From: a virus
IMG/VR virus record: IMGVR_UViG_3300028920_000117
Span: 1-44,983 of that record
Length of the DNA stretch: 44,983 bases
Strand: one strand, 5' to 3'
Part shown: positions 22,455 to 44,983 of the stretch, one piece after another
Numbering within the stretch: position 1 is the first letter of the stretch
Layout of the letters: the number at the start of each line of letters is the position of its first letter
The notes under the pieces: model-generated
The model's database searches: none
Told to the model about the DNA's origin: nothing
What the model saw: only the letters and a program-made list of their open reading frames with translations
Made by a program: the position numbers and the translations under genes

Positions 22455-22470
22455 GCAATCGAATAAACCT

Positions 22471-22948: not shown

Positions 22949-22972
22949 GCAATCGAATGAGGGGAAAAAGGA

Positions 22973-24054: not shown

Positions 24055-24534
24055 ATGATCGACATTAGAGGATTCAACGCGGAAGAGCACGAACCGGCAG
24101 GAAGTTTTGAGCCCATTCCCCCAGGAGACTACACCGCAATCATCACAGACTCAGAATCGAAACAAACAAAGTCAGGCAACGGCGAATATCTCCAGTTTGC
24201 GTTTCAAATCGTGGAAGGCGAGCACAAGGGCCGGGTGCTTTGGGCCCGGCTGAACCTCGACAACCCCAGCGAGACGGCGGTGAAGATCGCCAAGGGGGAG
24301 CTCTCGGCGATCTGCCGGGCGGTGGACGTGTTGACGCCAAACGATCCAGTGGAACTGCACAACATCCCGCTGGTGATCAAAGTTGGCACGAAGCGCCGTG
24401 AAGACAATGGCGAGACAACTAATGTAATTCGTGGTTACATTGCCAGCAAGAATGCGGCGGCCTATAGGCCGAATCGGGTCCCAATGGCTTCGGCGGGTGA
24501 CAGGCCCACTCCGCCGTGGATGAAGAATTCGTAA
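24055..24534 (+). CDS. DUF669 phage recombination-associated protein
   Basis: 159 residues, GAAAGGAAACAAAGC before the ATG. The pattern PPGDYTAIITDSESKQTKSGNGEYL, then FQIVEGEHKGRVLWARLNLDN and GELSAICRAV, is characteristic of DUF669 proteins. They accompany Sak-type annealing ATPases and RusA in phages and probably bind single-stranded DNA. OB-like strand pattern in the middle and a proline-containing acidic-free tail. It sits between the Sak4-like and RusA genes as expected. Confidence 0.8.
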   Translation: MIDIRGFNAEEHEPAGSFEPIPPGDYTAIITDSESKQTKSGNGEYLQFAFQIVEGEHKGRVLWARLNLDNPSETAVKIAKGELSAICRAVDVLTPNDPVELHNIPLVIKVGTKRREDNGETTNVIRGYIASKNAAAYRPNRVPMASAGDRPTPPWMKNS

Positions 24535-27271: not shown

Positions 27272-27577
27272 ATGAAAAGGTTATTCCCAGAATTTGTTGA
27301 CATGGGCAGGACACATTGTCCGTGGTGCCTAAGATATCGAGCGGTTGAATACGATAAGTTTTTTACTCCAGACTGTGACGACAGGTCTTTGTGCTGGTTT
27401 GATACAGAGCGGTATATTGGGGGATGTCCCGTAATGGACAATCCGCTCGCCGAGATTGTTAGGCTCAGGGAATTTATTCTCAAGGCGTGCCCGGACAGAG
27501 ACCTTGCCGAAGAAGCAATAATGATGCACGCAATCAATCCACGTTATGAAAGCGGGAAATATGCAGACCGCATCTGA
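27272..27577 (+). CDS. Zinc-binding small protein, tandem copy 1
   Basis: 101 residues. The CPWC knuckle (THCPWCLRYRAV, residues 15-18) is followed by a second Cys set (CDDRSLCW, GGCPVMDNPLAEIVRLREFI). The next gene repeats this layout, so the two are tandem paralogues. A zinc-dependent adaptor or anti-host factor is plausible but no family is recognised. It overlaps the next gene by up to 32 bases. Confidence 0.6.
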   Translation: MKRLFPEFVDMGRTHCPWCLRYRAVEYDKFFTPDCDDRSLCWFDTERYIGGCPVMDNPLAEIVRLREFILKACPDRDLAEEAIMMHAINPRYESGKYADRI

Positions 27578-27860
27578 AGCATTTGACGACAGAGACAGGA
27601 CTATTTGTCCGTGGTGCCTCAAATACATGGCAGACGATGAAGACGCGGAGCGGGATCCGGACTCGATTGGAGATGAATTGCTATGTTGGAAAAATCTAAA
27701 CGAGTGCGCGCCATGCGTACGAGATGATCCGCTCGCAGAAATTAATAAACTTAGAAACCATATTTGCGAACTTTGCAGACTTTTTACAAAACTTTGCAGA
27801 ATTTCTGCGGAAATAGTAGATTTAAATTGTTTGCCACATAAAGACTCGAAAAAAAGATAA
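27561..27860 (+). CDS. Zinc-binding small protein, tandem copy 2
   Basis: 99 residues from ATG 27561; ATG 27546 is also possible. RTICPWCLKYMADDEDA and LLCWKNLNECAPCVRDDPLAEINKLR match copy 1 in order and spacing. A third Cys cluster (CELCRLFTKLC) is unique to this copy. The AT-rich 3' end contains long T and A runs. Function unknown. Confidence 0.6.
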   Translation: MQTASEAFDDRDRTICPWCLKYMADDEDAERDPDSIGDELLCWKNLNECAPCVRDDPLAEINKLRNHICELCRLFTKLCRISAEIVDLNCLPHKDSKKR

Positions 27861-29993: not shown

Positions 29994-30147
29994 ATTTCGG
30001 CGCGCAATTCCGGCGCGCCGAAATAGGCGCCGGAATTGGGGCGATTGCCGGGTTATGGTAGGTGGATTCAATTCCGGCGCACACACCGCCCCGCCCCGTA
30101 GGGGCGGGGTGTGCGCCGGAATTGAATCCCGCCCTACCCCCGGCAAT
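29994..30147. repeat. Palindrome cluster, candidate replication origin or REPIN-like element
   Basis: CAATTCCGGCGC occurs at 30005-30016 and 30069-30080, and its inverse at 30027-30038 and 30113-30124. Two competing hairpins (29994-30004 with 30014-30024; 30005-30016 with 30027-30038) precede a long one: 20 bp (30064-30083 with 30110-30129), a five-base bulge, 9 bp (30089-30097 with 30101-30109) and a GTA loop, extended by GGTAGG/CCTACC and ATTGCCGGG/CCCGGCAAT out to 30044-30147. It lies in the 233-bp non-coding gap after the primase gene. Confidence 0.85.
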
Positions 30148-31250: not shown

Positions 31251-31592
31251 ATGACTCAGGATAAAAATCTCAGGGTAGTAAAAAATGACAATTTCGTTGT
31301 TGATTTTCAATTTGTCGATATTGACGACAACGTGATTGATTTAACCGGGATTACGGACGTAGAATTCAACGTAGCGGACGACTACGGGCTCGTAGATCCG
31401 GCTTTGTTGTCTTTTTCGTTGGGGGACGGAATCTCGGTACCCGATCCGACCGATGGAACAATCAAGGTGTCTACACCGCAGATCACATTGGATGCAAGGC
31501 AATACAAGTATGATCTGAGCACGACGATCAATTCTGTGAAAATTACCTGGCTCCGCGGTTTCTTTACCGTGCTCCCAGAGGTAGCCCCATGA
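31251..31592 (+). CDS. Tail/baseplate accessory beta domain protein
   Basis: 113 residues. Pattern KNDNFVVDFQFVDIDDNVIDLTG, then DGTIKVSTPQITLDARQYKYDL and RGFFTVLPEVAP, typical of the small beta-sandwich domain seen in BppU-like and other phage fibre-attachment proteins. It probably joins the large spike that follows to the tail. The stop overlaps the spike start by four bases (ATGA), indicating co-translation. Confidence 0.7.
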   Translation: MTQDKNLRVVKNDNFVVDFQFVDIDDNVIDLTGITDVEFNVADDYGLVDPALLSFSLGDGISVPDPTDGTIKVSTPQITLDARQYKYDLSTTINSVKITWLRGFFTVLPEVAP

Positions 31593-34500
31593 CTGTAATC
31601 ATTGTTCGCGCGACAGCAATTAACAAGATTATAATGTCTGGCAGAGGGCCCGCCGGCGCAGGCGTGCCGCCGGGCGGTACCGCGGGCCAAGTGCTCGAAA
31701 AAGCAAGCAACCTAGACGGCGATACGCAATGGTCGAGCACCGCCGGCGGAGTTACCGAGTTCACCGGCCTATTAGACACCCCCGGAACGATCACCGCCGA
31801 CGGAATCGTAGTCGGAAAAGCACTTGGGGACGGGCTCGAGTTTGTCGCATCGCTGGCGATTAGCCAAGTTGAGGATCTTCAGTCTTCACTTAATGACAAA
31901 TTGGACTTGGCGTCTGTATCGGTGTTCGGAGAGTCGCTGATTGATGATGCAGACGCATCCGAAGCAAGGGCCACGCTAGAACTCGGGACCGCGGCCACTT
32001 CATCGGCCGAAGACTTTGCAACGGCAGAACAGGGCATTCCGGCTGGCGGCTCGGCTGGCCAAATATTTACAAAATTGTCCGAAGAGGATTATGTCGCTGG
32101 ATGGTCCAATATTTCTTTGTCAGCGTCAGTTTATGTAAGGGCGGACGCAACAGGTACCGGAGATGGATCATCTTGGACTAATGCGTATACGTCACTTACC
32201 GTCGCACTCGCGGCAATAAACGCGGGCGACATCCTATACACCGATGGGGATTTTTACGAACAACCTGGAACGATCACTGCAAAGCACCGGCTGACCATCG
32301 TTGGAAACGTGGGGCCGAGTGGGCAGACACGTATCTTCGGTATTCGAATCATCGACAGCGCCGACGTTACCGACAACGGCGGAAATGTGTTCTCGTTTGT
32401 CAATCCCGAGACCGGCGATCCCGCCACCGTGACGTGGGATTATCAGCAGGATGACACACTCGGCACAGTGACCGGCGTAACCGTGATGGACGCAGAGTCC
32501 GTCGCAGCCGCGGCCGGAACGCTGATCGAGGTACCGTCCGTTCGGGCTTGGTACGGACACTTGCGCAAGGTCTCTCCGACAACTACCCCTGGCAGCGGCG
32601 AATGGTCGATGAGCGGCGAGAGCGTATACGTCAACCCGCCCGAGGCCGTGGGATCCACCGTAGATTTCGCGGCCGGTGTTGGCGTTGGCAGGCTTGGGAA
32701 CGGTATTGCTTTGAATGCGTGCGATGACGTCACGATTCGCGGCGTTCAAGTTATCGCGTTCGGCGACGAAAACACGCAGCGCGGATCGTTCTACACCACC
32801 GGGTGCCTGCGACTGACGCTCGATGACTGCGTCTCCTATGACGCAGGGTACCGCGGCTTCAACATTGAGGGTGCAACCGGCGACGACGGCGCGCTCGGAC
32901 ACCGGATCACGGGTTGCCTGTCTGCTGGCGACTGGGCCAGAAGCGGCAATACGAATAACTATTTTGTCGTCTACAACGCCGAGGGGGCCCCCGGCGCAGA
33001 TGTCGTATTCACGAACTGCCACGCCGTCATGTACCCCTGGCTCGAGACGACCGGACGCCCGATGGCCGGGTCGGTCACCGGTGAGACACACGAGACCACA
33101 CAGTACAGGCCGGTGTTTTTCTATTCGCACGTTGGCGGCTCGGCAATATCTCCCATCGGTGATATCTTGTTTGACCGCTGCGCCCAGTGGTCGCAGTGTC
33201 AGAACTTGAATTCCAAACACGCATCGCTCGGAATGTTCTGGCAAGACGAAGCGTGGATGCGGCTTCTCCAATCAGAGATTGCTACGACCGACTACACCGA
33301 CCCGGATGATTACGCGGTCGTGTGCCGAAACTGCCTGATTGTCGGCGACTTCAATAACTGCAACGTGCGGATGGACTCGTGCCGGATGATCGTACCGAGC
33401 GCGAAGGGCGCGCTGTCGTCCTACGCGAGATCGGTCACGCCAGAATCCACGTCTGACTACGACTGGGTACTCCTGGGCTCCAACGAGTCGATCTACTGGC
33501 GCCTGTGCGAGGTGTTCGCGTACGGAAAGGACAGCGCCACGGGCGCGTTGATTCGTGGTTTGAACAACTCTACATCGCTGATCCACGTCCCAGGCTGCAC
33601 GATTGTCTATTGGCTCGACAATCCGGCCTATGACTCCAACTGCATCTTCCGGCCCGGACCAGAGCACAAGATCTATGCTCCGGGCTGTGTGTTTGCGAGC
33701 ATTGGCACAGGCACGGGCGGCGGCGCACTTGGCGGGAATAACCGCCACTTCATGCGATACAACACATCCACTCCCGGCGCGGACTGGCCGACAGACTCAT
33801 ACGAAGGCAAGACGTTCGATCGGTGCTGGTGGTACGGGTTCTCTGAGACGTTTTTCTACCGCAACAGCAGCACCACATCCTCGGCATACAGCCACTTTGC
33901 GGACACTGCTGGCGGCTCGCCAATCGACAACACGGACCACGTCTTCGCTGTTGACCCCGAGTTTGTCGACGAGTCCATCGGAGATATCACCCCGGTTATT
34001 GGTGGCGCATTGGACGCGGCTAGGCTGTCGTCTGGGGTGTCGGACTTGTGGGGACTGGTGTCTGTCGGCGGAGTGGTCTATGGCGATCGGTATGGGTCAT
34101 ATCAAGGCATCGTGCAGGCGCATTCGCATCCCCTGTCTGACATCATCGACGCCGGGACTGCGGCTGTCCTGGACGTGCCGGCTTCCGGGGATGCGTCAGC
34201 CTCGGAAGTTGTCAGGGGCGATGATACGAGGCTCACAGACGCACGCACGCCGACATCGCACACGCACACCGAGGCGGACATCACAGACCTTGGGGCGTAT
34301 CTCATCGATGCCCCGTCCGATGGAAGCCAGTACGGCAGACAGAATGGGGCATGGGCCGTTATTTCCGGCGGAGGTGGCGGCACGCAGCGGCTGAACGTCA
34401 TGCAATTCGTGCTGCGTGCGTCCGCATCAAGCGACGGAACATCGAGCACCAACGCACAAACCGTACCCTACGACACATTCGAGACACTCAGTAGCGGATT

Positions 34501-34846
34501 GAGTTACAGCGATTCGGGCGGAGAAATTACCATCCTCGAGGCGGGCACATGGATTTTCACCTATGAGGTGACGACAAGTAATTCATCATCTAATACCAGA
34601 AGCGAAAGCGAAATTTGGTTTGAGATCGACGGAGGCTCGGGATTTGTAAAGGTTGATGATTCTGCCTCGTGGAACTACAACAGGCAAAGTTCACAAGGTA
34701 AAACTACTTCTACTGCTACAATCGCGTTTTCATTAGATGCAGGCTCGGATATCAGGGTAAGGTACCAAACCGATAGCGCAGCAGTATTTTCTGTTGCAAA
34801 TGCGTGCAGGCTTATGATTTACAGGCTGATTACCATCACAGCGTAA
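31589..34846 (+). CDS. Large tail spike/fibre with beta-helix domain
   Basis: 1085 residues. Two fibre motifs of the form G-x-P-G-G-x-A-G-Q-(V/I)-(L/F) lie at 25-50 and 149-174 (GVPPGGTAGQVLEKAS, GIPAGGSAGQIFTKLS). Residues about 180-800 start VYVRADATGTGDGSSWTNAY and run on as strands with short turns, like pectate-lyase-type beta-helix spikes. HSHPLSDIIDAG and SHTHTEADITDLG (870-930) mark the distal fibre linker. The last 150 residues resemble a trimeric C1q/TNF-like head. Likely the receptor-binding protein; depolymerase activity is possible but unproven. Confidence 0.85.
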   Translation: MTVIIVRATAINKIIMSGRGPAGAGVPPGGTAGQVLEKASNLDGDTQWSSTAGGVTEFTGLLDTPGTITADGIVVGKALGDGLEFVASLAISQVEDLQSSLNDKLDLASVSVFGESLIDDADASEARATLELGTAATSSAEDFATAEQGIPAGGSAGQIFTKLSEEDYVAGWSNISLSASVYVRADATGTGDGSSWTNAYTSLTVALAAINAGDILYTDGDFYEQPGTITAKHRLTIVGNVGPSGQTRIFGIRIIDSADVTDNGGNVFSFVNPETGDPATVTWDYQQDDTLGTVTGVTVMDAESVAAAAGTLIEVPSVRAWYGHLRKVSPTTTPGSGEWSMSGESVYVNPPEAVGSTVDFAAGVGVGRLGNGIALNACDDVTIRGVQVIAFGDENTQRGSFYTTGCLRLTLDDCVSYDAGYRGFNIEGATGDDGALGHRITGCLSAGDWARSGNTNNYFVVYNAEGAPGADVVFTNCHAVMYPWLETTGRPMAGSVTGETHETTQYRPVFFYSHVGGSAISPIGDILFDRCAQWSQCQNLNSKHASLGMFWQDEAWMRLLQSEIATTDYTDPDDYAVVCRNCLIVGDFNNCNVRMDSCRMIVPSAKGALSSYARSVTPESTSDYDWVLLGSNESIYWRLCEVFAYGKDSATGALIRGLNNSTSLIHVPGCTIVYWLDNPAYDSNCIFRPGPEHKIYAPGCVFASIGTGTGGGALGGNNRHFMRYNTSTPGADWPTDSYEGKTFDRCWWYGFSETFFYRNSSTTSSAYSHFADTAGGSPIDNTDHVFAVDPEFVDESIGDITPVIGGALDAARLSSGVSDLWGLVSVGGVVYGDRYGSYQGIVQAHSHPLSDIIDAGTAAVLDVPASGDASASEVVRGDDTRLTDARTPTSHTHTEADITDLGAYLIDAPSDGSQYGRQNGAWAVISGGGGGTQRLNVMQFVLRASASSDGTSSTNAQTVPYDTFETLSSGLSYSDSGGEITILEAGTWIFTYEVTTSNSSSNTRSESEIWFEIDGGSGFVKVDDSASWNYNRQSSQGKTTSTATIAFSLDAGSDIRVRYQTDSAAVFSVANACRLMIYRLITITA

Positions 34847-34856
34847 GGATATACAC

Positions 34857-35366
34857 ATGGCAATTGTCACACTTCATATCCACCCGAACGGGATCATCAG
34901 GCCGTTTGAGCCGCCCGCAACGTACGACATCGACACCTGGGGATCGGGTCCAAACGAGAAGCCGGTCATCAATACGGCATTCTCTATCTCTGGCATCTAC
35001 GACGCGTATCTGTTTTTCGAGCACTTGCGGGACGTGCTCGTGAAAATGGAAAGGAACAACTACGACCTTGCTAGCCCATCGCACCTTGCGCACTCATTCA
35101 CGTTTCAGACCGACGACGGCACATTCCATATCAGGCCCGATCTGTATATCGATCAGTCGATGCCGGCAACTTGGGACATGGCCACCGGCACGACCGACGG
35201 GCCCGAGAACAAGCCGGTCATCTCCAGCGAGACGATTATCCCGTCCAGTTACGATGCCGAGTGGTTCGTGAATCAGGGCAGGGTTGCAATTCGCAAGATC
35301 GAAGGAATCAACGCGCAGCCCCAATCGCCCGGGCTCATTGGTCACAGGTTCACGTTTCAGACCTAG
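34857..35366 (+). CDS. Tail protein with duplicated 84-residue module
   Basis: 169 residues. Residues 1-85 and 86-169 are two copies of one module: HPNGIIRPFEPPATYDIDTW / RPDLYIDQSMPATWDMATG, NEKPVINT / ENKPVISS, YDAYLFFEHLRDVLVKME / YDAEWFVNQGRVAIRKIE, and both end H-(S/R)-FTFQT. The position after the spike suggests a spike-associated or capping protein. Its last 127 bases equal the window start, so two different downstream contexts exist for this gene. Confidence 0.8.
   Translation: MAIVTLHIHPNGIIRPFEPPATYDIDTWGSGPNEKPVINTAFSISGIYDAYLFFEHLRDVLVKMERNNYDLASPSHLAHSFTFQTDDGTFHIRPDLYIDQSMPATWDMATGTTDGPENKPVISSETIIPSSYDAEWFVNQGRVAIRKIEGINAQPQSPGLIGHRFTFQT
35240..35366. repeat. 127-bp exact direct repeat, copy 2
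   Basis: Identical to 1-127 and ending at the same TAG. Downstream here is a tail-tip gene; downstream of copy 1 is a lipoprotein gene. This is the junction between the segments called A and B in the summary. Confidence 0.95.
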
Positions 35367-35386
35367 GCACGAATTGGGGTCAACAA

Positions 35387-35746
35387 ATGGACCAGCGGCA
35401 TGAATACACGGTGAGGGTCGAGACGGCCGGACCGGCCTGCGCCATGCATACGCAAGCGGCAGAGGCCGGCACCGGCATGATTGACACCGCCGACGTGGAC
35501 CGTGTCTCGATCGAGTGGCATCCGATCGGCGCGGCCACGTCTGCCGAACTCGAGGTCCGCAAGAGCTACGGCAACGTGCGCGGAGAGAGCCAAGCGTTCA
35601 GCACGGCCGCCACGTTCACCAACGGGGCAAGGCGGAGGCTGGAACTGGACGTCCAGGATTGTCCGATGCTGGAGGTCATCATCACCACAGCCGGTGGTGC
35701 GGGTGCCATGGGCATCCTTCACGTGTACGGCTACAGTACTGTCTGA
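35387..35746 (+). CDS. Small tail-tip protein, homologue of 13259-13582
   Basis: 119 residues from ATG 35387, preceded by TTGGGGTCAACAA; longer frames upstream run through the previous gene in another frame. Beta-rich: HEYTVRVETAGPACAMHTQA, VDRVSIEWHPIGAAT, SAELEVRKSYGN, AFSTAATF, MLEVIITTAGGAGAMG. Order of elements and the neighbouring beta-helix gene match 13259-13582. Probably a tail-tip structural protein. Confidence 0.7.
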   Translation: MDQRHEYTVRVETAGPACAMHTQAAEAGTGMIDTADVDRVSIEWHPIGAATSAELEVRKSYGNVRGESQAFSTAATFTNGARRRLELDVQDCPMLEVIITTAGGAGAMGILHVYGYSTV

Positions 35747-35776
35747 CAGCGGCCGCGAAGGCCGGGAGCATCCAAA

Positions 35777-36568
35777 ATGGCAACGCGCACCCTGATTGAC
35801 GGATCGACAGACCTGACCCAGGCCAGCAGCTGGAGCGGGGCAACCATTCCGATCACCGGAGATGATGTCGTCATCCCTCGTGGCCGGCAGCACATCGACA
35901 CCTTTAGCCTGGCCGGCGTGCGACTTGAATCGCTTGAGATCGCGTTCAACGGCCGCATCGAAACCACGTCCGGTGCCGCCCTGGCGGTTGACGTGGACAA
36001 CAGCACAGACTCAATTGCCAAGATCAGCGGGACCGGCGCCACCCTGAGGCTGAGCGGTGGAACCACAAACGGCAAGTGGGAGAACACCCTGATCAACAGC
36101 CCCGGCTCATTGGTGGCGTTCACCAATGGGGAGTTCGAGGACATGACGGTGGAGTCCGGTACGGTCATCCTTGACTCGAGCGCGACATTCGACAACATGA
36201 ACATCCTCGGCGGCAGTGTCACCCTGGCCGATGTCGCTTCGGCGGCCGGAACATGCAACCACCGAGCGGGCACTCTCCACATCCACCGCCCGGGCGAATA
36301 CAACGTGTACGGCGGTAGCGTCGTCCTGGACGTGACCGTTGCCGGCACCACGACCATCAACCTGTACGGGGGCAGCTTGACGCACGTCAACGGCGACTTC
36401 GGCGGAGAGATCCACGGCATGTACATGGACGCGCTCGAGCAGGCCGCGACCATCGACACGGTGATCATCTCCAGCCTGGCGCGGATCAGGAGCACGAACC
36501 GGGTGACCTGGTCCAACGTCACCGAGCAGGGGATGACCGTGGCACTGCCACTGATCGGCAGCATATGA
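35777..36568 (+). CDS. Beta-helix-like tail protein, homologue of 13586-14413
   Basis: 263 residues. Starts MATRTLIDGSTDLTQASSWS and continues as short strands with Gly turns at regular spacing (GGTTNGKWENTLINSPGSLV, FTNGEFEDMTVESGTVILDS, SATFDNMNILGGSVTLADVA, LYGGSLTHVNGDFGGEI), the look of a parallel beta-helix. The A-segment counterpart has the same start and repeat spacing but differs in most residues. GC-rich compared with it. The stop overlaps the next start by four bases. Confidence 0.7.
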   Translation: MATRTLIDGSTDLTQASSWSGATIPITGDDVVIPRGRQHIDTFSLAGVRLESLEIAFNGRIETTSGAALAVDVDNSTDSIAKISGTGATLRLSGGTTNGKWENTLINSPGSLVAFTNGEFEDMTVESGTVILDSSATFDNMNILGGSVTLADVASAAGTCNHRAGTLHIHRPGEYNVYGGSVVLDVTVAGTTTINLYGGSLTHVNGDFGGEIHGMYMDALEQAATIDTVIISSLARIRSTNRVTWSNVTEQGMTVALPLIGSI

Positions 36569-37521
36569 CACGCCTGGCCACTTGCGAGGGCGGTACGCGT
36601 CTGGTGCGGTGCGGGAACCGGGTGCAGGTGTGCACAGATCAACGCCCCACCACATGCGACGGTTCCATAACCACCTATCGGTGTCCGTGCATCAGCGATA
36701 CATACGATCATGATATGCCCGAGTGCAATGTTGTCGTCGACAGAGTGATTCCTTGGCGAGCGCAAGTAATCGAGTGGGAGTGGGAATGGGAGTATATAGA
36801 AGAACGGGTGAGATCCTATGGCACCTCCGAATTGGTGCGCCGCAGCCATATAGGTGGTATTGCCGGCTATGCTTTTGCGTGGGGCCGGTACCCCACGATT
36901 CAAGAAATTCGCGACAACTACGGGATCGCCGAGGGGGAGTGGGGAGATGAAACATTCGTAATATACCCGCCTTATCAGTTCGGCGAATACACAACCGGAA
37001 CCTTTTTTGCGCAAAGAGTAATCGAAGAAGAAAACGGCGCCCTTGGGTTTCAATTTTACCCGAATAGATACGGCAGCATTGAACTATCCTGGCTTCCTTA
37101 TCACTATTACAAAATAAACGTGAGCATGTCGGGCCCTGTTTTAGGTCCCCGTACACTCGACTGCTTCGATGCCGCATTTGAACATTATGCCTATTTTATA
37201 GAAGCAAAAAGAACTTTCACGACCGAAGTATCTGGCGATGAGCGTGTTTTCAAGCAAACAACGGAGTTCTTTAGACGCGACACAAATATATCCACGCCGG
37301 ATACGGATAATAGTACTATAATAGAAAATGAAGTCACCACCGTTAGAATACTGCATGAATTTCCACACCTGATGGATACGTGGACTGGTCCGCAAGACTG
37401 GACTCCGTGCGAGCCGGTTCCTGAGGGTCCAGCCCAGCCCGCGAGCACCGATCCGAACGCCGAGGCGATCGCCAGGCAGCAGCAGCTCGACCCTCAGAAC
37501 CGGCCGGGCTGCTGCGGGTAG
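36565..37521 (+). CDS. Cys-containing tail-tip protein, relative of 14928-16643
   Basis: 318 residues; ATG overlaps the previous stop. A Cys-rich N-terminal module (TCEGGTRLVRCGNRVQVC, CDGSITTYRCPC) precedes an AT-richer middle (residues 60-270, aromatic: EWEWEYIEE, YPPYQFGEY, SWLPYHYYKI). The C-terminus (PASTDPNAEAIARQQQLDPQ, then GCCG) parallels the end of the 571-residue protein at 14928, and both follow a beta-helix gene. Here the three Cys modules are missing. Ends one base from a convergent minus-strand gene, without room for a terminator. Confidence 0.6.
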   Translation: MTRLATCEGGTRLVRCGNRVQVCTDQRPTTCDGSITTYRCPCISDTYDHDMPECNVVVDRVIPWRAQVIEWEWEWEYIEERVRSYGTSELVRRSHIGGIAGYAFAWGRYPTIQEIRDNYGIAEGEWGDETFVIYPPYQFGEYTTGTFFAQRVIEEENGALGFQFYPNRYGSIELSWLPYHYYKINVSMSGPVLGPRTLDCFDAAFEHYAYFIEAKRTFTTEVSGDERVFKQTTEFFRRDTNISTPDTDNSTIIENEVTTVRILHEFPHLMDTWTGPQDWTPCEPVPEGPAQPASTDPNAEAIARQQQLDPQNRPGCCG

Positions 37522-37522
37522 G

Positions 37523-37915
37523 TCACGCCCCTCCTTGATGGACCCGATCCCACTGGGAGAGTCGCCCGATCAGATGCTCTCGGGCGATCTCGGCCCGCTT
37601 CAGGAGCTCGCGGAGTTCAGACTCTTCCCGCTCGCGGAGCTGCCAGCCAGTCTCGGCAAAGCGGAGCGTCTCCCGTATCTGGTCGGGGTGCGCTGGGCTG
37701 TTGGGATCAAGCCACTCGAAACTGTGCCCGCCGCTCTCGAGGTCCTCGAGCGTGCACCGCACGGCCCGGGCTGCTTCGCGGATGTCCCGGTCGGGTTGGA
37801 ATCCGTCCGGGGGGCTGGTCGAGCCCCACCCAAACCACTCTGCGCCCGCGTCTCCCAGAGCGAGGTAGAGGTCGTGTAGCGCGTCCCGTAGTGCATCCAC
37901 CGCTGGAGCGATCAT
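37523..37915 (-). CDS. Small acidic helical protein, unknown
   Basis: 130 residues; AAGGGGG before the ATG, which shares one base with the preceding stop (TGATG). Strongly helical and acidic (DALRDALHDLYLALGDAGAEW, REREESELRELLKRAEIARE). No TM segment or known motif. It is the last gene of the segment B minus-strand operon and converges with the tail gene at 36565. Confidence 0.6.
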   Translation of the reverse strand: MIAPAVDALRDALHDLYLALGDAGAEWFGWGSTSPPDGFQPDRDIREAARAVRCTLEDLESGGHSFEWLDPNSPAHPDQIRETLRFAETGWQLREREESELRELLKRAEIAREHLIGRLSQWDRVHQGGA

Positions 37916-38154
37916 CAGGAACCCCCTTCCTGCGCAGACATGCTGCGCGCGTCAACGTATGCCTCCAAGTCCTTCAGGTGACGGAAGTGTGAACCAGTGG
38001 GTTGAAGGGTGTCTGGGTCAATCAGGAAGTACCACGGTTCTCTCACGCTGGAGAGCGTGAAGACATCGCAGAGCCTCCGCTCTACCCATGGATACCCGCG
38101 GTGTGTTCCTTCTCGAATGTTTTTTCCTTGGCCAGTCATTAGATACCGTCCCAT
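37915..38154 (-). CDS. Small protein, unknown
   Basis: 79 residues. Pattern WVERRLCDVFTLSSVREPWYF, then IDPDTLQPTGSHFRHLKDLEAYV. Start overlaps the previous stop as TGATG and has GGTGGGG upstream. Its first codons (MGRYLM) recur in degenerate form in the remnants at 22520 and 40375, in front of repeat-family genes. No function assigned. Confidence 0.6.
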   Translation of the reverse strand: MGRYLMTGQGKNIREGTHRGYPWVERRLCDVFTLSSVREPWYFLIDPDTLQPTGSHFRHLKDLEAYVDARSMSAQEGGS

Positions 38155-38402
38155 CAGATGACCCCACCATCACGGCGAATGCGTTCGCGCGTTCGAGCCT
38201 TGGCCGATCTCTCGATGCCACCGATTATTCCCATGAGGTGCATTCCCTTTGATTGGACCCATGGATCTTTTGCACCAATTAGAGTCTTCGCGCGTCGCTT
38301 GATCTCCCTGATCGCATACTGGTAGTCTTCCACGGTCATCTCGTCATTCCGGACCATCCTGCGGTGTGGAATGCGCTTGGTGCGAGTGTTCGCCTTTCCC
38401 AT
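38154..38402 (-). CDS. Small basic protein, unknown; source of junction remnants
   Basis: 82 residues; ATG 38402 with GGAGG six bases upstream, preferred over an upstream ATG at 38438 that overlaps the previous gene. Very basic ends (KANTRTKRIPHRRMVR and ARTRERIRRDGGVI) flank a helical middle (DYQYAIREIKRRAKTLIG). The last eight or so codons are repeated at 22471 and 40386, where they stand alone. A nucleic-acid-binding role is plausible but unproven. Confidence 0.6.
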   Translation of the reverse strand: MGKANTRTKRIPHRRMVRNDEMTVEDYQYAIREIKRRAKTLIGAKDPWVQSKGMHLMGIIGGIERSAKARTRERIRRDGGVI

Positions 38403-38403
38403 T

Positions 38404-38958
38404 TCACGCCTCCAGGTCGATCTTGGTGCCATTCGCATTTGCTGCAGTATTGCCGTACGCCTTAGTCGCGTGCGCCGCGAACGCCTGCGTGTATGCGGTG
38501 ATGTCGTTACCGTCCTCGTCCACGATGGTCACGGCAGCGCAGAATCTCGCAAGTAGTTCGCACGCAGGCGCGATCAGGTCGCGGACCATCGCTGCCTTGA
38601 CATCGTCAGCGTGCAACTTCGTGTATGCCGCCTGAAGAATTGAGAGACGATCGCCGACCTCGGTTGCAAGGCCCTGAAAGTCGGGGCCTTCAGGTGTCAT
38701 CAGGTCGAGCGCACCGTATCGGTGGTGGCGTAGCTCTAGGTCCTCGACCTGCCGCATCGCGGCCTCGTAGATCGCGTCGCCGAGCCGCTTGGCTACGCCG
38801 CACCTCTCGGCGTTGCTGCCGTAGCTCGAGTATCCGATGCGGCCGTCGGCGGTCGTGAACAGCAGCACGGCGCGATCAACGTTTGCTTTAAGTTGCTCGC
38901 CAATGCTTCGGGCGGCGTCGCGCACGATCTTGATCTCCGGTCTCTGTTTCCATGTCAT
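38404..38958 (-). CDS. Phage protein of unknown function
   Basis: 184 residues; ATG shares a base with the preceding TAA. Middle part has a strand region (DRAVLLFTTADGRIGYSSYG) followed by helices (ERCGVAKRLGDAIYEAAMRQ, MVRDLIAPACELLARFCAAV). No TM segment or catalytic motif recognised. Translationally linked to both neighbours. Role in the early operon unknown. Confidence 0.6.
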   Translation of the reverse strand: MTWKQRPEIKIVRDAARSIGEQLKANVDRAVLLFTTADGRIGYSSYGSNAERCGVAKRLGDAIYEAAMRQVEDLELRHHRYGALDLMTPEGPDFQGLATEVGDRLSILQAAYTKLHADDVKAAMVRDLIAPACELLARFCAAVTIVDEDGNDITAYTQAFAAHATKAYGNTAANANGTKIDLEA

Positions 38959-39320
38959 TATTTGATTCCTTCCGTTTTCTTCAAAACATAGGCAGAATCG
39001 GCAACTGCAAGCCCACGCTCAAAGCTTTCGAGCTCACTCCGTGTATACATGACCAGTTCCCGAAACTCGTCTCTGGTTTTGAGAAGCGCCTCTTGGTGGT
39101 CAGTCGTCAAATTACTGTGCGTGGACGGATAATAGACGTAGCCCGGTACGCGCTCGCCAGAAACGGCGCCGTCTGGATCTACCATCTCGCACCACTCAAC
39201 ATCGTATGTACGCTTGTCGGCATGCTGTCTGATAATCACGGCAGCGCGCAGCTTGCCGGAGTAGTCGAGTCTGGTGCCGTACAGGATATCGCCAGGTTTC
39301 AGATTCATTGATTCGCTCAC
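38958..39320 (-). CDS. Small SH3-like protein, unknown
   Basis: 120 residues from GTG 39320, preceded by a full-length ribosome site AGGAGGTGA seven bases upstream, which decides the start. The sequence begins with strands as in small SH3-like domains (NLKPGDILYGTRLDYSGKLR, AAVIIRQHADKRTYDVEW) and ends in a helix (EALLKTRDEFRELVMYTRSE). The fold is inferred; no function assigned. Confidence 0.6.
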   Translation of the reverse strand: MSESMNLKPGDILYGTRLDYSGKLRAAVIIRQHADKRTYDVEWCEMVDPDGAVSGERVPGYVYYPSTHSNLTTDHQEALLKTRDEFRELVMYTRSELESFERGLAVADSAYVLKKTEGIK

Positions 39321-39331
39321 AGAATCACCTC

Positions 39332-39460
39332 CTATCTGACTCTGAACGGGTCAATCCGCACGATGGTCGGGCCACGACGACGACGAGGCGGCGCCGCGAT
39401 CGCCCAGAGAATCACGAGCATAATGCCGCTCAGGGCAAGCCCTGTCGCAAGGATCATCAT
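39332..39460 (-). CDS. Small single-TM protein
   Basis: 42 residues; ATG 39460 overlaps the stop of the nuclease upstream (ATGA) and follows GAGGGTGGG. Residues 1-23 form one hydrophobic segment (MMILATGLALSGIMLVILWA), followed by a basic tail (PPRRRRGP). Too short for family assignment. The overlap and ribosome site support it as a real membrane microprotein. Confidence 0.6.
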   Translation of the reverse strand: MMILATGLALSGIMLVILWAIAAPPRRRRGPTIVRIDPFRVR

Positions 39461-39879
39461 TCACCCACCCTCTGAATGTTGTGGTACAGCATTGCCATCG
39501 CCTTCTGCTGTGCCTGCGGTGTGCTTGCTGTCACGACGTAGGGATCGCGAGAGAGGCAACATGCAATCTTGAACGAGATCAGCCAGACGTTACGGCGTTC
39601 CTTGTGGATCAGGATGGGGGTGTGGCCAACCGGACAATCTCGGTATGCCTGCTCGATCGCCATGCAAAACAGCCGATTTCCGATCTGCAATGACTCGTTG
39701 TTCTTCACCTCGACGTGGAATCGTGACCAGACCGGGTGGTCTACGGCACACTCGACATCGCCCACGACGCCGGCCGAACGGTGCTGTTGGGTGCGGCGCC
39801 ACGGTACGCCTGTCAGTTCTTCCATCAGATTGGCGGCGAACCGCTCGCCAACCTTTCCCTTGCGGCTCGAGTTGACCAT
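39457..39879 (-). CDS. Hjc-like PDDEXK nuclease, probable junction resolvase
   Basis: 140 residues; ATG 39879 with GAGG upstream, rather than the longer frame through the repeat gene. Core motifs: KGKVGERFAANLMEEL (Glu of helix 1), VVGDVECAV (Asp), then HVEVKNNES (Glu-x-Lys). This is the arrangement of archaeal-type Holliday junction resolvases and related restriction-like nucleases found in phages. It would serve in segment B the role that RusA serves in segment A. C-terminal half helical and less conserved. Confidence 0.7.
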   Translation of the reverse strand: MVNSSRKGKVGERFAANLMEELTGVPWRRTQQHRSAGVVGDVECAVDHPVWSRFHVEVKNNESLQIGNRLFCMAIEQAYRDCPVGHTPILIHKERRNVWLISFKIACCLSRDPYVVTASTPQAQQKAMAMLYHNIQRVGE

Positions 39880-39956
39880 CTGTACCTCGCTTCGCTGGAA
39901 AAGCCCGGGACGCAACACGAGGGACGCCCCGGACCTGTTCAAGTTCATTCGATTGC

Positions 39957-40355
39957 TCACCCGTACATTGTCTGGCCGCAACCATTGCCCGTACGATATG
40001 CTTGCCCGCGTCCCCCACCAAACCTGCATGCGTAACCATGGCCCAGTCCGAGACGCCTAGCATCTCCGTGCCCCCCGTCGATGCGAAAAGCCATCCCGTC
40101 CCCAGATCCCCAGCGATAGGCACTACCCATACCTACCCCCTCGCGGATCGCATCGCCTGGTCCCCAGCCATCACGGAAGGAGTCTCCGTCTTCGGCCCCG
40201 TGTACGACAATGGTCCCAAATGCCTTTCAGCGCAGACCATATTTCGTTTTGTCTTTGGCGCTGACTCGATGATATCGCCCGTCCGCCTCTCTCCAGTAGA
40301 TTCCATTCTCCAGTGTTGCGCCTTTGAGCCATTCCTCGTGTGTCCAGTTTTTCAT
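39957..40355 (-). pseudogene. Glycine-decapeptide repeat gene, family member 6, with premature stop
   Basis: Starts at ATG 40355 with AAAAAGGAGGTCAAAC upstream and reads MKNWTHEEWLKGATLENGIYWRE split over the family head. At 40227-40229 a TGA replaces the GGA found in member 3, right after YGLR. The frame then stays open for a further 90 codons of intact repeats (EGVGMGSAYR, WGSGDGMAFR, LGLGHGYACR) to a TGA at 39957. A recent nonsense mutation is the simplest explanation; TGA is an ordinary stop elsewhere here. A truncated head of 43 residues could still be made. Confidence 0.8.
40030..40177 (-). repeat. 148-bp exact inverted repeat, copy 2
   Basis: Reverse complement of 22240-22387 without mismatch. 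It lies downstream of the premature stop, so the untranslated part of this broken gene is the best conserved, which points to very recent divergence or gene conversion. Confidence 0.9.
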
Positions 40356-40441
40356 GTTTGACCTCCTTTTTCAGATACTGCCCATTCAGATGTCGCCACC
40401 CTCGCGGCGAATGCGCTCGAGTGTGGGAGGGGAGTCACTTC
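40356..40441 (-). repeat. Gene-junction remnant before repeat-family copy
   Basis: On the minus strand, 40421-40386 encodes LERIRREGGDI followed by TGA, the end of the 38154-38402 protein, and is followed by ATGGGCAG as at its neighbour's start. No full gene is present. The same arrangement stands before member 4 at 22553, so both copies arrived with this scar. Confidence 0.65.
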
Positions 40442-40726
40442 CTACTCGATGTCTGCGGCGCGAACAGACGCGAAGGTCTGAACGCGAAAGCGTCGGTATA
40501 CGCGGACGATCCGGTAGTCGCCCTGATCAAGGCGACCCTCTCCCACTTCCTGCTCGATCAACGCTCGGATCGCGGAGTGCGCCTCGCCATCGCTCGGGAC
40601 GATCTTGGATTCACGCCACGGCTCCGTATCGTCCTTTCGGTACTCCACCAGAACCGGGGGGAGTTTCCAGGACTTGCGGGTCTTGGGCTGCTCGGTCTGC
40701 TCGGTCTGTTTGTCTTTCGTTGCCAT
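40442..40726 (-). CDS. Small protein, unknown
   Basis: 94 residues, AAAGGAATTCC before the ATG. A Lys/Gln/Glu-rich disordered start (KDKQTEQTEQPKTRK) leads to a strand-helix-strand core (KLPPVLVEYRKDD, GEAHSAIRALIEQEVGEGR, DYRIVRVYRRFRV). First gene behind the minus-strand promoter at 40760-40788. No function assigned. Confidence 0.6.
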   Translation of the reverse strand: MATKDKQTEQTEQPKTRKSWKLPPVLVEYRKDDTEPWRESKIVPSDGEAHSAIRALIEQEVGEGRLDQGDYRIVRVYRRFRVQTFASVRAADIE

Positions 40727-40759
40727 GGAATTCCTTTCTGCTGGTCAGTTGTCCGTGTG

Positions 40760-40788
40760 AGTATAGGCTCGAATCACTGCAAAGGCAA
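40760..40788 (-). promoter_or_regulatory. Sigma70-like promoter for 40726-37523 genes
   Basis: Minus-strand TTGCCT (40788-40783), 17-bp spacer, TATACT (40765-40760). Four and five of six consensus bases. Transcription would start near 40753, about 27 bases before the 94-residue gene, and could read through the repeat pseudogene and resolvase to 37523. Confidence 0.5.
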
Positions 40789-41415
40789 ATGCATTGGACG
40801 AATTTCTTTTGGCATCTCGGCTTTTTTCTCGCGAATCGAAAAAATCATGGCCGCGGCAGTTTTTGCGCGCCAGTTCGTTGGCCTCTGGCCGGGCGGTCGG
40901 GTCGAGCGAGCAGGAGGGCTCGCCCGCCCGCCCGGTCGTAACAACCTGCACTCTGAGGCTTGTTATCGACGCTGCGCGTCGACGCTTCGCGGCTACTTCT
41001 GCTCCGCTGCTTCGCAGGCTCCGCAGGGGGCCACCCATGCTCCGAGGGAGTTGGTTGGGAGAACGACCCCTGCCGCAATCACGCCCGCAGCGTAACCGTG
41101 CAGGTGGCCGTTCCATGCCCCTCGGTCGCAGGCCGATCGAACGCCCGTGGTGTTTGGGCCCGGCATCCACGGGTTGCACCCTGCCGGCCGGCGCTGGCGT
41201 CACGCACGCCAGTCCCCGCCAGTTCGTCGACACCTGCGGGATTTTCTCACCGATTCCGGCCAACTACGCCCACCGGAAGGGCGGACGCGATGCCCGCAAG
41301 CCTTGTCGTCGCGTCACGACCGCCAAATTGGAAACGGGCCGGGGCGATGTTGTCGCCGCCGAACCGCTCAGAGAGGAGAAATGCAAAAAACCCAGTCGCC
41401 AGGCTCTGGCGAGGG

Positions 41416-41444
41416 TTGACTCCTGGTGTTGTGTGCTGTATTCT
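41416..41444 (+). promoter_or_regulatory. Sigma70-like promoter for short RNA
   Basis: TTGACT (41416-41421), 17-bp spacer, TATTCT (41439-41444). It points against the surrounding minus-strand genes and lies about 30 bases before a perfect intrinsic terminator, so its product would be a very short RNA. Confidence 0.55.
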
Positions 41445-41450
41445 TCATGA

Positions 41451-41511
41451 GTCCGCTGCATCCGGACACTGGCCGCCCCGCGAGTCGTCGCCGCGGGGCG
41501 GTTGCTTTTTT
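41451..41511 (+). ncRNA. Candidate small RNA of about 60 nt
   Basis: Bounded by the promoter above and a terminator. Its 5' end can form a hairpin, GTCCG/CGGAC with loop CTGCATC (41451-41467), followed by the terminator stem. No open frame fits inside. It lies antisense to the gap downstream of the RecT-like gene, not to its coding region. It could be a regulatory RNA or a decoy transcript; no known family is recognised. Confidence 0.45.
41473..41511 (+). terminator. Intrinsic terminator
   Basis: Perfect 10-bp GC stem CCGCCCCGCG / CGCGGGGCGG (41473-41482 with 41492-41501), nine-base loop, then TTGCTTTTTT. Plus-strand only, since the other side has no T-run in the right place. Confidence 0.85.
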
Positions 41512-41549
41512 GGACCCCCCCGACGCTCGGGCGTGTTCCTGAGGACACT

Positions 41550-42329
41550 CTAGCCTGCCTCGTGGCCGATGTCAAGCAGCTCGGCATCGAGTGCGTCACC
41601 GGAGTCTGGGCGTTTCTCGCCGGGCATGAGCGCCGGCCTGAACTCGACGATATCGAGCGCGTCGGATTCGTGCTGGAACCCCGCGAGCAAGTCGGCGAAT
41701 GCCTCCCTGAATGCGTACGTCTTGGCCTTGCCCCGGAGCATACGTTTCGGAAACTTGCTCCAGATGCTGCCCTTCTTTTGGGTCAGGCCCGCAGCGACCG
41801 CCTCACGCCACGAGAACGACTCGGTGAAGGATAGTATGCGAAGCGTTTTGTCGCGCAACTCGCGGAATCGGCGAACGGTGCAGGTGCAGCGCATGTCTTC
41901 GCCCTCGCCCTCGTCGGCGATGGTGTGGTCGATGTAGTCTGGCGACCACTGAGCGATGCCGACGATCGCGTCTCCCCACAGCGTAGGGCGACCGTTCACC
42001 ACATACACGCTCTTGATCGTGCTGGCGGGCCCAAGCCCGATTTCAGCCCCGGCCATCAGCGCCACCATGACATCGGCCGGTGAGCACGCCCCGCTAATGT
42101 TGGTGCCGCTATTGTAGATCCGCTCCGCCATGCGGTACAGTTGGTTATGGTCGGTGGGCATCAGCCGGCCACGCTCAAACAGAATGAGCGATTTGTCCGA
42201 CGCCTTCGGATCGGTGCGGTCGTCCGGTTCATGAGCCCGTGGCGCATTCGGATCATCATCCTCCGGGCGGTTGGGCCTGCTGGTACCGAGGATCTGATCG
42301 AGATCCTTGGCTGTGATGTCGTCTTTCAT
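41550..42329 (-). CDS. recT: RecT-like single-strand annealing protein
   Basis: 259 residues, GGAGGATCAGC before the ATG. A polar acidic N-terminus of 55 residues precedes the RecT/Red-beta core: MAERIYNSGTNISGACSPADVMVALMAGAEIGLGP, then SVYVVNGRPTLWGDAIVGIA and KGSIWSKFPKRMLRGKAKTYAFREAFADLLAG, quoted here in parts. These match RecT-type proteins, which anneal and exchange single strands made by a partner exonuclease. That partner is probably the nuclease just upstream, whose stop overlaps this start. Acidic C-terminal tail. Confidence 0.85.
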   Translation of the reverse strand: MKDDITAKDLDQILGTSRPNRPEDDDPNAPRAHEPDDRTDPKASDKSLILFERGRLMPTDHNQLYRMAERIYNSGTNISGACSPADVMVALMAGAEIGLGPASTIKSVYVVNGRPTLWGDAIVGIAQWSPDYIDHTIADEGEGEDMRCTCTVRRFRELRDKTLRILSFTESFSWREAVAAGLTQKKGSIWSKFPKRMLRGKAKTYAFREAFADLLAGFQHESDALDIVEFRPALMPGEKRPDSGDALDAELLDIGHEAG

Positions 42330-43186
42330 GCTGATCCTCCATATGGGCTATTTACGGGACGCAGCAACTTGTCTTGCGACCACCGTGGCAGCCCGAGTGT
42401 CAGGCGATTGTTGTGTGCGATCCCGTTTGCTTCGCTGCGATCCCGGTAGGCCCGGTATCGCGAGGCAGCGATTTCGATCTCTGCCCATCCCTGCTGGATG
42501 TCCTCGACGGGGATGCCGGACAGGGCGGAGTCGTAGGGCGGAGATGTCTCCTGCCACGCAAACAGCCATGCAGGATCGTGTATGCCATAGGCTACCTGCA
42601 TCGCACGCATGTACCAAGCGGCCTGAATGTGATATCCGTACTTCCAGATGGATCGCTCGACATCGGCGATGGTCAGCGTCGCGGTGGTCTTGATATCCAC
42701 TGCGCCGATCCCCTCCCAAAGCCGGTCGATCCGTGCCTTGCACTTCACCCCGCCGAGCAGGGGCTCGTGCCAGATGATCGTGTGTTCCGCGAAGCTGGCA
42801 TCTGTCAGCACCTTCTTACAGAGCGGGTGCGCCGAAAACGACTCGTACATGCGGAGCAGTCGATCCCACTCCTCGGCCACCAGCAGGATCTTCCCGGGCT
42901 CCAGAGCGTCCCGTTCCTCCTGGAATGCTTTTGTGGTGACGGATTTGGTGGCCGTGTGTCTTACGATGTTGTTGAAGTCGCCATCCTCGCACACCTTGTG
43001 GAAAGCGGTTCCGCGATTCATGGCGGCGGTTTCGGCCTGCCCCTCGGTCAGATACCACGCCCCGGCGAGCCCGCTGATCGCGAACTTTTTCAGGGTCGAT
43101 GCGTTGAGCGCGTCGATCAGGACGTAGTCTTCGAAACGCATGGCCCTGATGATCTCTGCGTCCGGGTCAGATTGTGTCGCAGTCAT
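42326..43186 (-). CDS. Exonuclease VIII-like PDDEXK nuclease (DUF3799)
   Basis: 286 residues, AAGGAAATGGGGA before the ATG. Motifs: MNRGTAFHKVCEDG (His), KARIDRLWEG (Asp), AVDIKTTATL (Asp, Lys) and IQAAWYMRAM. Same family as 19673-20572 but clearly divergent, and paired here with a RecT-type rather than a Sak4-type annealer. The C-terminal 50 residues are basic and variable. The gene overlaps the regulator gene upstream by 20 bases. Confidence 0.85.
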   Translation of the reverse strand: MTATQSDPDAEIIRAMRFEDYVLIDALNASTLKKFAISGLAGAWYLTEGQAETAAMNRGTAFHKVCEDGDFNNIVRHTATKSVTTKAFQEERDALEPGKILLVAEEWDRLLRMYESFSAHPLCKKVLTDASFAEHTIIWHEPLLGGVKCKARIDRLWEGIGAVDIKTTATLTIADVERSIWKYGYHIQAAWYMRAMQVAYGIHDPAWLFAWQETSPPYDSALSGIPVEDIQQGWAEIEIAASRYRAYRDRSEANGIAHNNRLTLGLPRWSQDKLLRPVNSPYGGSA

Positions 43187-43637
43187 TCCCCATTTCCTTG
43201 ATGTAGTCGCGGAGCGCAGGGATCAGCTCGCGGAGAGTCGCTGCCTGCGCCTTCATTGTGATTCCGTTTCCGATCCGGTACACGCGGTCCTCGGGCTGAC
43301 CGATCGCTTTGGCGATCTCGGCGTATGACATCGGCCTGTTGCGGACACGGTGGATCAAGGTCCGGGCCTCGTCGGTCGCTGCGTACCCAATCATGGATGC
43401 CCTGAAGGCATCTTCCGAATCTGCCATCGCCCGCTCGCTCGGCGTCATGCCGTCCTTGCTCGCCGCCCGCTGGTCGCGCTTGGTCGCGTTCTCCTGGTCG
43501 GCCGCCGCGATCGCCTTGAGGTTGGCGTCGACGCTCGCCTTGGCATTTGCGAGGGCCCGCTTGGTCTTGGCCTCTGCCTTAGCCCGGTCCGCGACGGAAG
43601 ACATCCGGCGGGTCTTCCTGTTGGTCTTCTTCTTCAT
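43167..43637 (-). CDS. Probable HTH DNA-binding regulator
   Basis: 156 residues, AGGAGTGCCCAG before the ATG. Basic start (KKKTNRKTRRMSSVADRAK), a long helix (ALANAKASVDANLKAIAAAD) like that of the 26816 protein, then a helix-turn-helix-like region near 105-130 (MSYAEIAKAIGQPEDRVYRI). It could regulate the early operon of segment B. No classical repressor protease or oligomerisation domain is seen. Confidence 0.65.
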   Translation of the reverse strand: MKKKTNRKTRRMSSVADRAKAEAKTKRALANAKASVDANLKAIAAADQENATKRDQRAASKDGMTPSERAMADSEDAFRASMIGYAATDEARTLIHRVRNRPMSYAEIAKAIGQPEDRVYRIGNGITMKAQAATLRELIPALRDYIKEMGNDCDTI

Positions 43638-43876
43638 CTGGGCACTCCTATCGCGCTTCTCCTGTCGGCGTGCAAAAGCAGTTCGCCCGCGATTTCGACG
43701 AGTTCCTTTGCGCGATCGCGAAGTTTTTCACGCGAGCCCCAAAGAAAGATCGTAGTATCGATAGGCAAGGGCCCTGCCTGCTTGTCATGAATGCGTATGG
43801 CGCAATTGTCCGCGGAGAATGTGATCGACTGCTCAGGACACAGATGCAGCATCAAGGTTGCGGATGTCTTTCGCAC
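43634..43876 (-). CDS. First gene of segment B early operon, unknown
   Basis: 80 residues from GTG 43876; AGGAGG six bases upstream decides this start over the ATG at 43909, which lies before that ribosome site. Mixed strands and one helix (SREKLRDRAKELVEIAGELL). Its stop overlaps the regulator start by four bases. No function assigned. Confidence 0.6.
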   Translation of the reverse strand: MRKTSATLMLHLCPEQSITFSADNCAIRIHDKQAGPLPIDTTIFLWGSREKLRDRAKELVEIAGELLLHADRRSAIGVPR

Positions 43877-43897
43877 GGTGAACCTCCTGATGTTCGG

Positions 43898-43925
43898 ATT
43901 ATGCAGCATATCTACGCGAAGTCAA
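43898..43925 (-). promoter_or_regulatory. Sigma70-like promoter for segment B early operon
   Basis: Minus-strand TTGACT (43925-43920), 16-bp spacer, CATAAT (43903-43898), each five of six consensus bases. Start near 43891, just before the AGGAGG of the first gene. The 44000-44080 stretch to the divergent plus genes shows only T/G-rich DNA. Confidence 0.6.
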
Positions 43926-44088
43926 GGGATGGTCAATAAAATATGGGTGAATGATGCAGAATCACGCAAAACCACACAGTTCGGGTGGGTGAATTGACTC
44001 CCACCCCGTTCTGGTGGAAGTTGTTGCTTGGTTGGGATTTAGGTGGTTCTCAGTGAATCCGGTTTCTGTGTGGGTGGTATGATTGGCT

Positions 44089-44484
44089 ATGCCAAACCAG
44101 CAATACGACACTGGGGTCAGCCGCTACGACCGCCTCCAGTCGAGCATCGAGGCCTTGACGCGCGATGTCGGCGACACCATGGCGACTGTGCGAAGTCTCG
44201 CGGGGACGGTCGGGGCAATCGCCCAGCGGCAGGACCGGCTCGAGTCCTTGCAGCGAGATTCGAGTCGCCTCAACTGGGCTCCTGTGTCGATCGTGGCCAC
44301 AGTAATGATCGCGGTGGCGACGCTGAGCGGGGGGCTCATCGCCTACGCGATCTCGGCCGAAGCGAGGGCGAGAGTCACGGGTGACGAGCACCTGGACCGC
44401 CTCTACAATGCGGTGCTCGAGGACAATCTCGCCGAGGTTCGGAGACGGATCGAAAGGCTTGAAAGTCCCGCGCATGGGAAGTAG
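44089..44484 (+). CDS. Coiled-coil membrane protein, holin-like candidate
   Basis: 131 residues from ATG 44089; a TTG two codons earlier is possible. Residues 10-60 are a coiled coil (RYDRLQSSIEALTRDVGDTM, RQDRLESLQRDS), residues 64-88 a hydrophobic segment (VSIVATVMIAVATLSGGLIA), and the rest a charged helix. This plan suits accessory holins of the XhlA type and Rz-like inner-membrane spanins. A lipoprotein gene follows, as in an Rz/Rz1 pair, which supports a lysis role; this is inferred. Confidence 0.6.
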   Translation: MPNQQYDTGVSRYDRLQSSIEALTRDVGDTMATVRSLAGTVGAIAQRQDRLESLQRDSSRLNWAPVSIVATVMIAVATLSGGLIAYAISAEARARVTGDEHLDRLYNAVLEDNLAEVRRRIERLESPAHGK

Positions 44485-44493
44485 GCTAGTGCT

Positions 44494-44757
44494 ATGAGCG
44501 ACGAAACAGGTACGGATTCCCAAGTCTGCACGACGCTGCGCGACATCGCGGAAAGCGTGGCCCCGCTCGTATTCGTGGCGATCGCGGCGATGCTCCTGTC
44601 TGGGTGCACGTCCCAGCCTGCACGCAACCGCGTGACGCCGGGACAGGCGAGCGTGGACCGCGAGGTTGTCGGCCCGAGTCGGTGGAGGATCGAAATTCGA
44701 CAGCCGCCGCGCGTCTACGTGCCGACGCAAGCGGATTCGGAAGGGGGCAAGCGATGA
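44494..44757 (+). CDS. Lipoprotein, homologue of 147-338
   Basis: 87 residues, ATG 44494. A polar N-terminal extension of about 20 residues precedes a hydrophobic stretch (APLVFVAIAAMLLSGC) with lipobox LLSGC and Cys38. Then TSQPARNRVTPGQASVDREV and a basic strand region, matching the A-segment lipoprotein at its mature N-terminus. The signal is unusually far from the start; M33 would be too late to leave a signal peptide. Candidate outer-membrane spanin. The stop overlaps the next small frame. Confidence 0.65.
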   Translation: MSDETGTDSQVCTTLRDIAESVAPLVFVAIAAMLLSGCTSQPARNRVTPGQASVDREVVGPSRWRIEIRQPPRVYVPTQADSEGGKR

Positions 44758-44813
44758 CAGTCGGGGAAGCACTGAGATACGCGAGGATGCGGAGGGTCGA
44801 ACGGCTTCGGTAG
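44754..44813 (+). CDS. Very short frame, possibly a truncated gene
   Basis: 19 codons (MTVGEALRYARMRRVERLR) starting with an ATGA overlap and GGGGGCAAGCG upstream. The first residues resemble the 69-residue protein at 19024-19233 (MTVEEAIAAVR). It may be a leader peptide or the remains of such a gene, and is followed directly by the repeated 55-bp leader. Confidence 0.35.
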   Translation: MTVGEALRYARMRRVERLR

Positions 44814-44820
44814 CTGAACA

Positions 44821-44875
44821 CGGGGGTACTCGATGTTATCCGGTGAAAAAAGCTGGACGGGAGGTGGCGAATGAT
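44821..44875 (+). repeat. 55-bp leader repeat, copy 2
   Basis: Matches the reverse complement of 19229-19283 with two mismatches. It contains the ribosome site GGGAGGTGG and the start codon of the following gene. Confidence 0.8.
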
Positions 44876-44983
44876 CCCGGATGATTGGCCAGAGTGGGTT
44901 TCAAAACTGGCAGAGTCCGGCGCAGATGTCATCGTGACGTCTGAGACTGACGGGACGGAATCGTTCACTGCTGATTCCCGTGG
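44871..44983 (+). CDS. Gene start, cut by window end
   Basis: ATG 44871 after GGGAGGTGGCGA; open to the last base, giving 37 complete codons (MIPDDWPEWVSKLAESGADV...). Acidic helix then strand, a little like the start of the protein at 335-946 (IIRAAQESGLEVEIYTESGG), which also follows a lipoprotein gene. If they correspond, the terminase would be expected next. Product unknown. Confidence 0.55.
   Translation, partial: MIPDDWPEWVSKLAESGADVIVTSETDGTESFTADSR

Follow-up and report, generated by a model that had tools for sequence, protein, structure and literature searches.

Two recombination modules in a 44,983-base viral contig: a probable assembly join of two related siphophages

Segment A and the 127-base repeat

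The window analysed here is the whole of IMG/VR record IMGVR_UViG_3300028920_000117, a single contig of 44,983 bases. An exact direct repeat of 127 bases occupies its first positions and recurs internally, at 35240–35366; the contig's first base is the first base of the repeat, and the identity of the two copies ends exactly at 127 bases, as base 128 and base 35367 differ. No other 127-mer is directly repeated in the contig, and no 128-mer is. The internal copy is the 3′ end of a gene here called X, and divergence begins directly after its stop codon, i.e. at a natural gene boundary. That point separates segment A from segment B, and an earlier reading made from the sequence alone (the sequence-only reading) had started B at 35367, exactly where the repeat ends. 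The features of segment A that matter here are as follows.

1–35366, plus strand: segment A, read as one complete circular phage genome of 35,239 bp walked once round (complete gene complement and 127-base closure)
1–127, plus strand: first copy of the 127-base repeat, at the contig start; covers the final 42 codons of X with the TAG stop; 100% identical to 35240–35366
147–338, plus strand: small lipoprotein (TTG start), homologue of 44494–44757
1232–2635, plus strand: terminase large subunit (PHROG 2, E 8e-29)
2675–5101, plus strand: portal fused to a Mu F-like head protein (PF04860, E 2e-39; PF04233)
19574–20572, plus strand: exonuclease VIII-like protein (PHROG 412, E 7e-33; DUF3799)
21137–22051, plus strand: Sak4 annealing protein (PHROG 124, E 3e-49; Pfam AAA_24, E 7e-52)
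24055–24534, plus strand: DUF669 single-strand binding protein (PF05037, E 9e-16; PHROG 6015)
24556–25128, plus strand: RusA resolvase (PF05866; PHROG 34)
25125–26801, plus strand: ResIII-type helicase (PHROG 16, E 9e-100)
31589–34846, plus strand: tail fibre-like gene; no other large gene lies between it and X (weak PHROG tail matches)
34857–35366, plus strand: gene X, encoding 169 aa of no known family; the shared 127-mer forms its 3′ end
35240–35366, plus strand: second copy of the repeat and A/B fork point, with divergence right after the TAG stop of X

The genes of A run from the lipoprotein and a small membrane gene through terminase, portal, protease, capsid, and connector and tail genes to exonuclease VIII, Sak4, the DUF669 single-strand binding protein (SSB), RusA, helicase, primase, fibre and X, and from there back to the lipoprotein. 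From this gene order, A reads as one complete circular siphophage with one recombination module, and we propose that its 35,239-bp map represents DNA that is circularly permuted or terminally redundant in life. Long or structural-looking genes also stand directly ahead of the terminase genes in three related viral contigs (G011, G020, G021), so that X and the fibre gene at the closing point of A are not out of place.

The assignment of the annealing protein of A to the Sak4 family is supported by AAA_24 and PHROG 124 matches that cover the full domain. In known phage modules, sak4 lies upstream of genes for a DUF669 SSB and a ResIII helicase (PMC8093625), and A has Sak4, then the DUF669 SSB, RusA and the ResIII helicase in the same order; unlike those modules, it has several glycine-rich repeat genes between Sak4 and the SSB gene. 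Two other features of A were observed. Directly past the primase gene lies a near-perfect, G+C-rich inverted repeat of 29 bases with an 8-base loop (30064–30129), possibly a terminator or regulatory element, and two adjoining small cysteine-rich genes at 27272–27860 are tandem duplicates (41% identity over 76 aa).

Segment B, its resemblance to A and its relatives

Segment B begins with tail genes on the plus strand, continues with a convergent minus-strand block of resolvase, RecT-like and exonuclease genes, and ends with a lipoprotein on the plus strand.

35367–44983, no strand assigned: segment B, probably a fragment of a second, related phage (tail genes, composition, layout of relatives, restarted late operon)
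35387–35746 and 35777–36568, plus strand: tail pair homologous to A 13250/13586; 35777 is also homologous to G011 12326–13150
39457–40029, minus strand: PDDEXK-type resolvase (PF24608, PDDEXK_15; PHROG 244, labelled RusA-like there)
41550–42329, minus strand: RecT-like annealing protein (PHROG 561, E 2e-17)
42326–43186, minus strand: exonuclease VIII-like protein (PHROG 412, E 5e-46; DUF3799)
44494–44757, plus strand: small lipoprotein with which B's own late operon begins; 45% identical to that of A

The sequence-only reading had claimed that B repeats functions already present in A, and the profile searches and alignments bear this out for the exonuclease VIII, for the two annealing proteins of different families, for the tail-tip pair (25–26% identical, E 6e-4 and 2e-5) and for the lipoprotein (45% identity over 60 aa, E 1e-10). 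Two resolvases are likewise present, but the 'Hjc-like' label given to the one in B was that reading's own word, the Pfam match being to PDDEXK and not to RusA. Its title had also announced repeated lysis genes, for which the basis is the lipoprotein, which overlaps the next reading frame, together with the start of a following small gene (about 44869) in a position matching the small membrane gene of A. The presence of these two at the far end of B indicates that B enters its own late operon there; the segment breaks off before the expected place of its terminase.

The exonuclease VIII and RecT-like genes of B overlap by 4 bases on one strand, as in RecE/RecT-type modules; the difference is that the RecT of B is divergent, being found by PHROG 561 while its Pfam RecT score falls just under the cut-off (23.2 bits against 24). 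The exonuclease VIII and RecT pair is also found in several relatives. The closest parallel in layout is G011 (IMG/VR 3300048587_000194, from the same collection), a circular genome of about 38.1 kb in which the late genes lie on one strand and RusA, RecT and exonuclease genes converge on the other, with a lipoprotein and a fibre-like gene ahead of the terminase. It differs from B in having RusA in place of the PDDEXK resolvase, and the proteins that the two share are only about 30% identical. The sequence-only reading had proposed a search for B-type genes followed by their own terminase in another contig, and G011, with its own terminase and a RecT adjoining a B-like exonuclease, provides exactly this. 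Another relative, G005, resembles A in that its exonuclease is of the A type and lies on the same strand as its terminase.

The composition of the two segments differs, in a comparison that the same reading had also called for. The tetranucleotide correlation of B with A is 0.71, whereas every stretch of A of equal length correlates with the rest of A at 0.86–0.93, and the GC content of B is 59.9% against 55.2% in A; the homogeneous composition expected of a single phage across both modules was not found. At the protein level, A and B are mostly 25–45% identical, the exception being a glycine-rich repeat gene at 84%. Judged by its sequence, B is not part of A by descent or composition. Within A itself, composition was compared along the fibre cassette (31251–35366) for signs that B shares the whole of it. 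The tetranucleotide profile resembles that of A at first and that of B between about 32500 and 35366, which suggests a switch within the fibre gene near 32–33 kb; a Markov log-likelihood test gave mixed results. X and the 3′ part of the fibre gene might thus have been acquired from the B phage, or be common to it.

Besides the end of X, A and B have several near-identical stretches in inverted orientation. The longest is an exact match of 148 bases (22240–22387 and 40030–40177) inside a 349-base stretch at 93%, and there are two more of 58 bases at 95% and 33 bases at 97%. The 349-base stretch sits in the glycine-rich repeat gene family, to which A contributes five genes and B one. The 148-base match shows recent common DNA, and it could also fit paralogues in one genome because A itself has five genes of the family. 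Exchange between phages in the same habitat would explain both the near-identical stretches and the shared end of X.

The glycine-rich repeat proteins, encoded for example at 18216–19054 (minus strand), 22062–24025 (plus strand) and 39960–40355 (minus strand), start MKNWTHEEWIKGA... and continue with many G-x-A-x-R-x-G repeats. One member run against PHROG and Pfam gave no match, and a scan of bacterial genomes confirmed no relative of the family; several more such genes occur in a 50-kb viral contig (G063, 3300031949_000056). The copy in B, at 39960–40355, has an early in-frame TGA where the closest copy in A is intact, and is therefore a broken gene or an error. The inverted stretch that A and B share at 19224–19286 and 44818–44880 (58–63 bases at 92–95%) ends, in each case, near the start of a small gene and may be a leader or promoter element carried between phages.

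A probable assembly join and its rivals

An exact repeat of this kind has a known origin in assembly. Where paths fork, metaSPAdes contigs overlap by the largest k used (PMC10914622), and the k list 33, 55, 77, 99, 127 is given in a metagenome announcement found under 'DOE JGI' (PMC7171226); we infer that the present contig is a metaSPAdes product with k = 127. The repeat has the form of a fork or closure artefact, in that it is exact, equals this largest k and runs from the contig's first base; as a control, the circular G011 has an end repeat whose length is also exactly 127 bases. In a one-strand 127-mer graph of circular A plus B we found a single branching node, which can be entered one way and left two ways; the edges of the graph measure 35,366 and 9,744 bases. 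A path that makes one circuit of A before leaving for B comes to 35,366 + 9,744 − 127 = 44,983 bases, the size of the contig, which is a consistency check and not independent proof since the graph was itself derived from the contig.

We therefore consider it very probable that the contig came about when the assembler joined two related, co-occurring siphophages, and that it does not represent one phage with two recombination systems, a reading drawn from the repeat, the gene layout and the composition. At the 3′ end of X, beside the tail fibre gene, the two phages would be identical over a stretch of 127 bases or more. In a de Bruijn graph at k = 127 this stretch would form one node with two exits, one to the start of A and one to B; the assembler would have circled A once to the node and then left it into B, giving a linear A plus B contig in which the second phage is represented by a 9.6-kb fragment. 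Each phage alone would then have a standard single recombination module, exonuclease VIII with Sak4, DUF669 SSB and RusA in A, and exonuclease VIII with RecT and the PDDEXK resolvase in B. Since the 148-base match is longer than k, the assembler must have met and resolved a second fork there, probably with read pairs.

The forked and circular metaSPAdes contigs described for COBRA (PMC10914622) likewise have an exact largest-k repeat at the contig start and at the fork, and arise where different genomes share a region. In contrast to those, the second copy is internal here, the assembler having continued into another genome, and for this reason no end repeat is left to show the circle of A.

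The sequence-only reading had offered two joined phages, an unusual dual-module genome or a tandem prophage. The first is favoured by the self-closure of A, B's own late operon, the differing composition, the lack of both gene sets in any one of the related contigs compared and the lack of a tyrosine or serine recombinase; the other two are not supported.

Variants or recombinants in one phage population, in some of which X would be followed by A's late operon and in others by B, would also place a fork directly after the X stop codon, at a natural gene boundary, and could account for the lean of the 3′ fibre region towards B in tetranucleotides. However, the homologues of A in B are mostly only 25–45% identical, which makes B a different phage and not a variant of A. 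We regard population variants as extremely unlikely on their own terms; if X was exchanged between two phages, this explanation merges into that of an assembly join.

A single real genome of 45 kb or more, carrying both modules and a true direct repeat flanking A, would explain why A and B lie in one contig and have several short near-identical stretches in common. It does not sit well with a repeat of exactly 127 bases that runs from the contig's first base, with an A that is already complete, with a late operon restarted in B or with the difference in composition. Nor does the combination of annealing families recur: among 45 other related or exonuclease-bearing viral contigs, nearly all of them reached via the exonuclease, none has both PF03837 (RecT) and PF13479 (Sak4). 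Three of the 45 have PF13479 and 13 have PF03837, the latter count being a lower bound, since PF03837 falls below its cut-off on the RecT of B itself and divergent RecT proteins escape the models. At nine other loci the exonuclease has a relative of B's RecT beside it, and none of these is one of the three Sak4 contigs. We give a genuine 45-kb genome scarcely any credence, and it is very unlikely that a real phage genome or replicating hybrid physically links, via the shared X gene, a complete phage of the A type to a B-type tail and recombination block, with Sak4 and RecT systems acting in one virus.

Tandem prophages in one host chromosome, with the repeat as attachment sites, would fit the direct repeats flanking A and the relatedness of A and B, but this possibility is remote in the extreme and was rejected, as the repeat sits within a coding gene linked to the fibre, the integrase and resolvase families sought (tyrosine and serine recombinases, PF00589 and PF00239) gave no match in the record, no tRNA was found there, and a portal alignment search of bacterial genome contigs, with poor reach to distant relatives, confirmed no relative.

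Thirty bases of the repeat had no exact match among viral contigs, in a search from which the record itself and very near records were possibly excluded; megablast of 34000–44983 against phage records gave no match; and neither the protein of X nor B's RecT, each searched singly, had a close relative.

Meaning for the record

The duplicated functions are real, whereas a single genome containing them very probably is not: the pattern is a true one in the contig, the contig as a molecule very probably does not exist, and presumably no molecule carries A joined to B. The record thus needs splitting at 35366, into a complete circular phage of 35.2 kb and a 9.6-kb piece of a second phage. If it stays as it is, the record would make one phage seem to have two annealing systems, give a wrong genome size and hide the completeness of A. 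Where the first k bases of a contig recur exactly in its interior, a circle has been continued into another genome, and looking for such repeats may be a useful and cheap test for virus collections.
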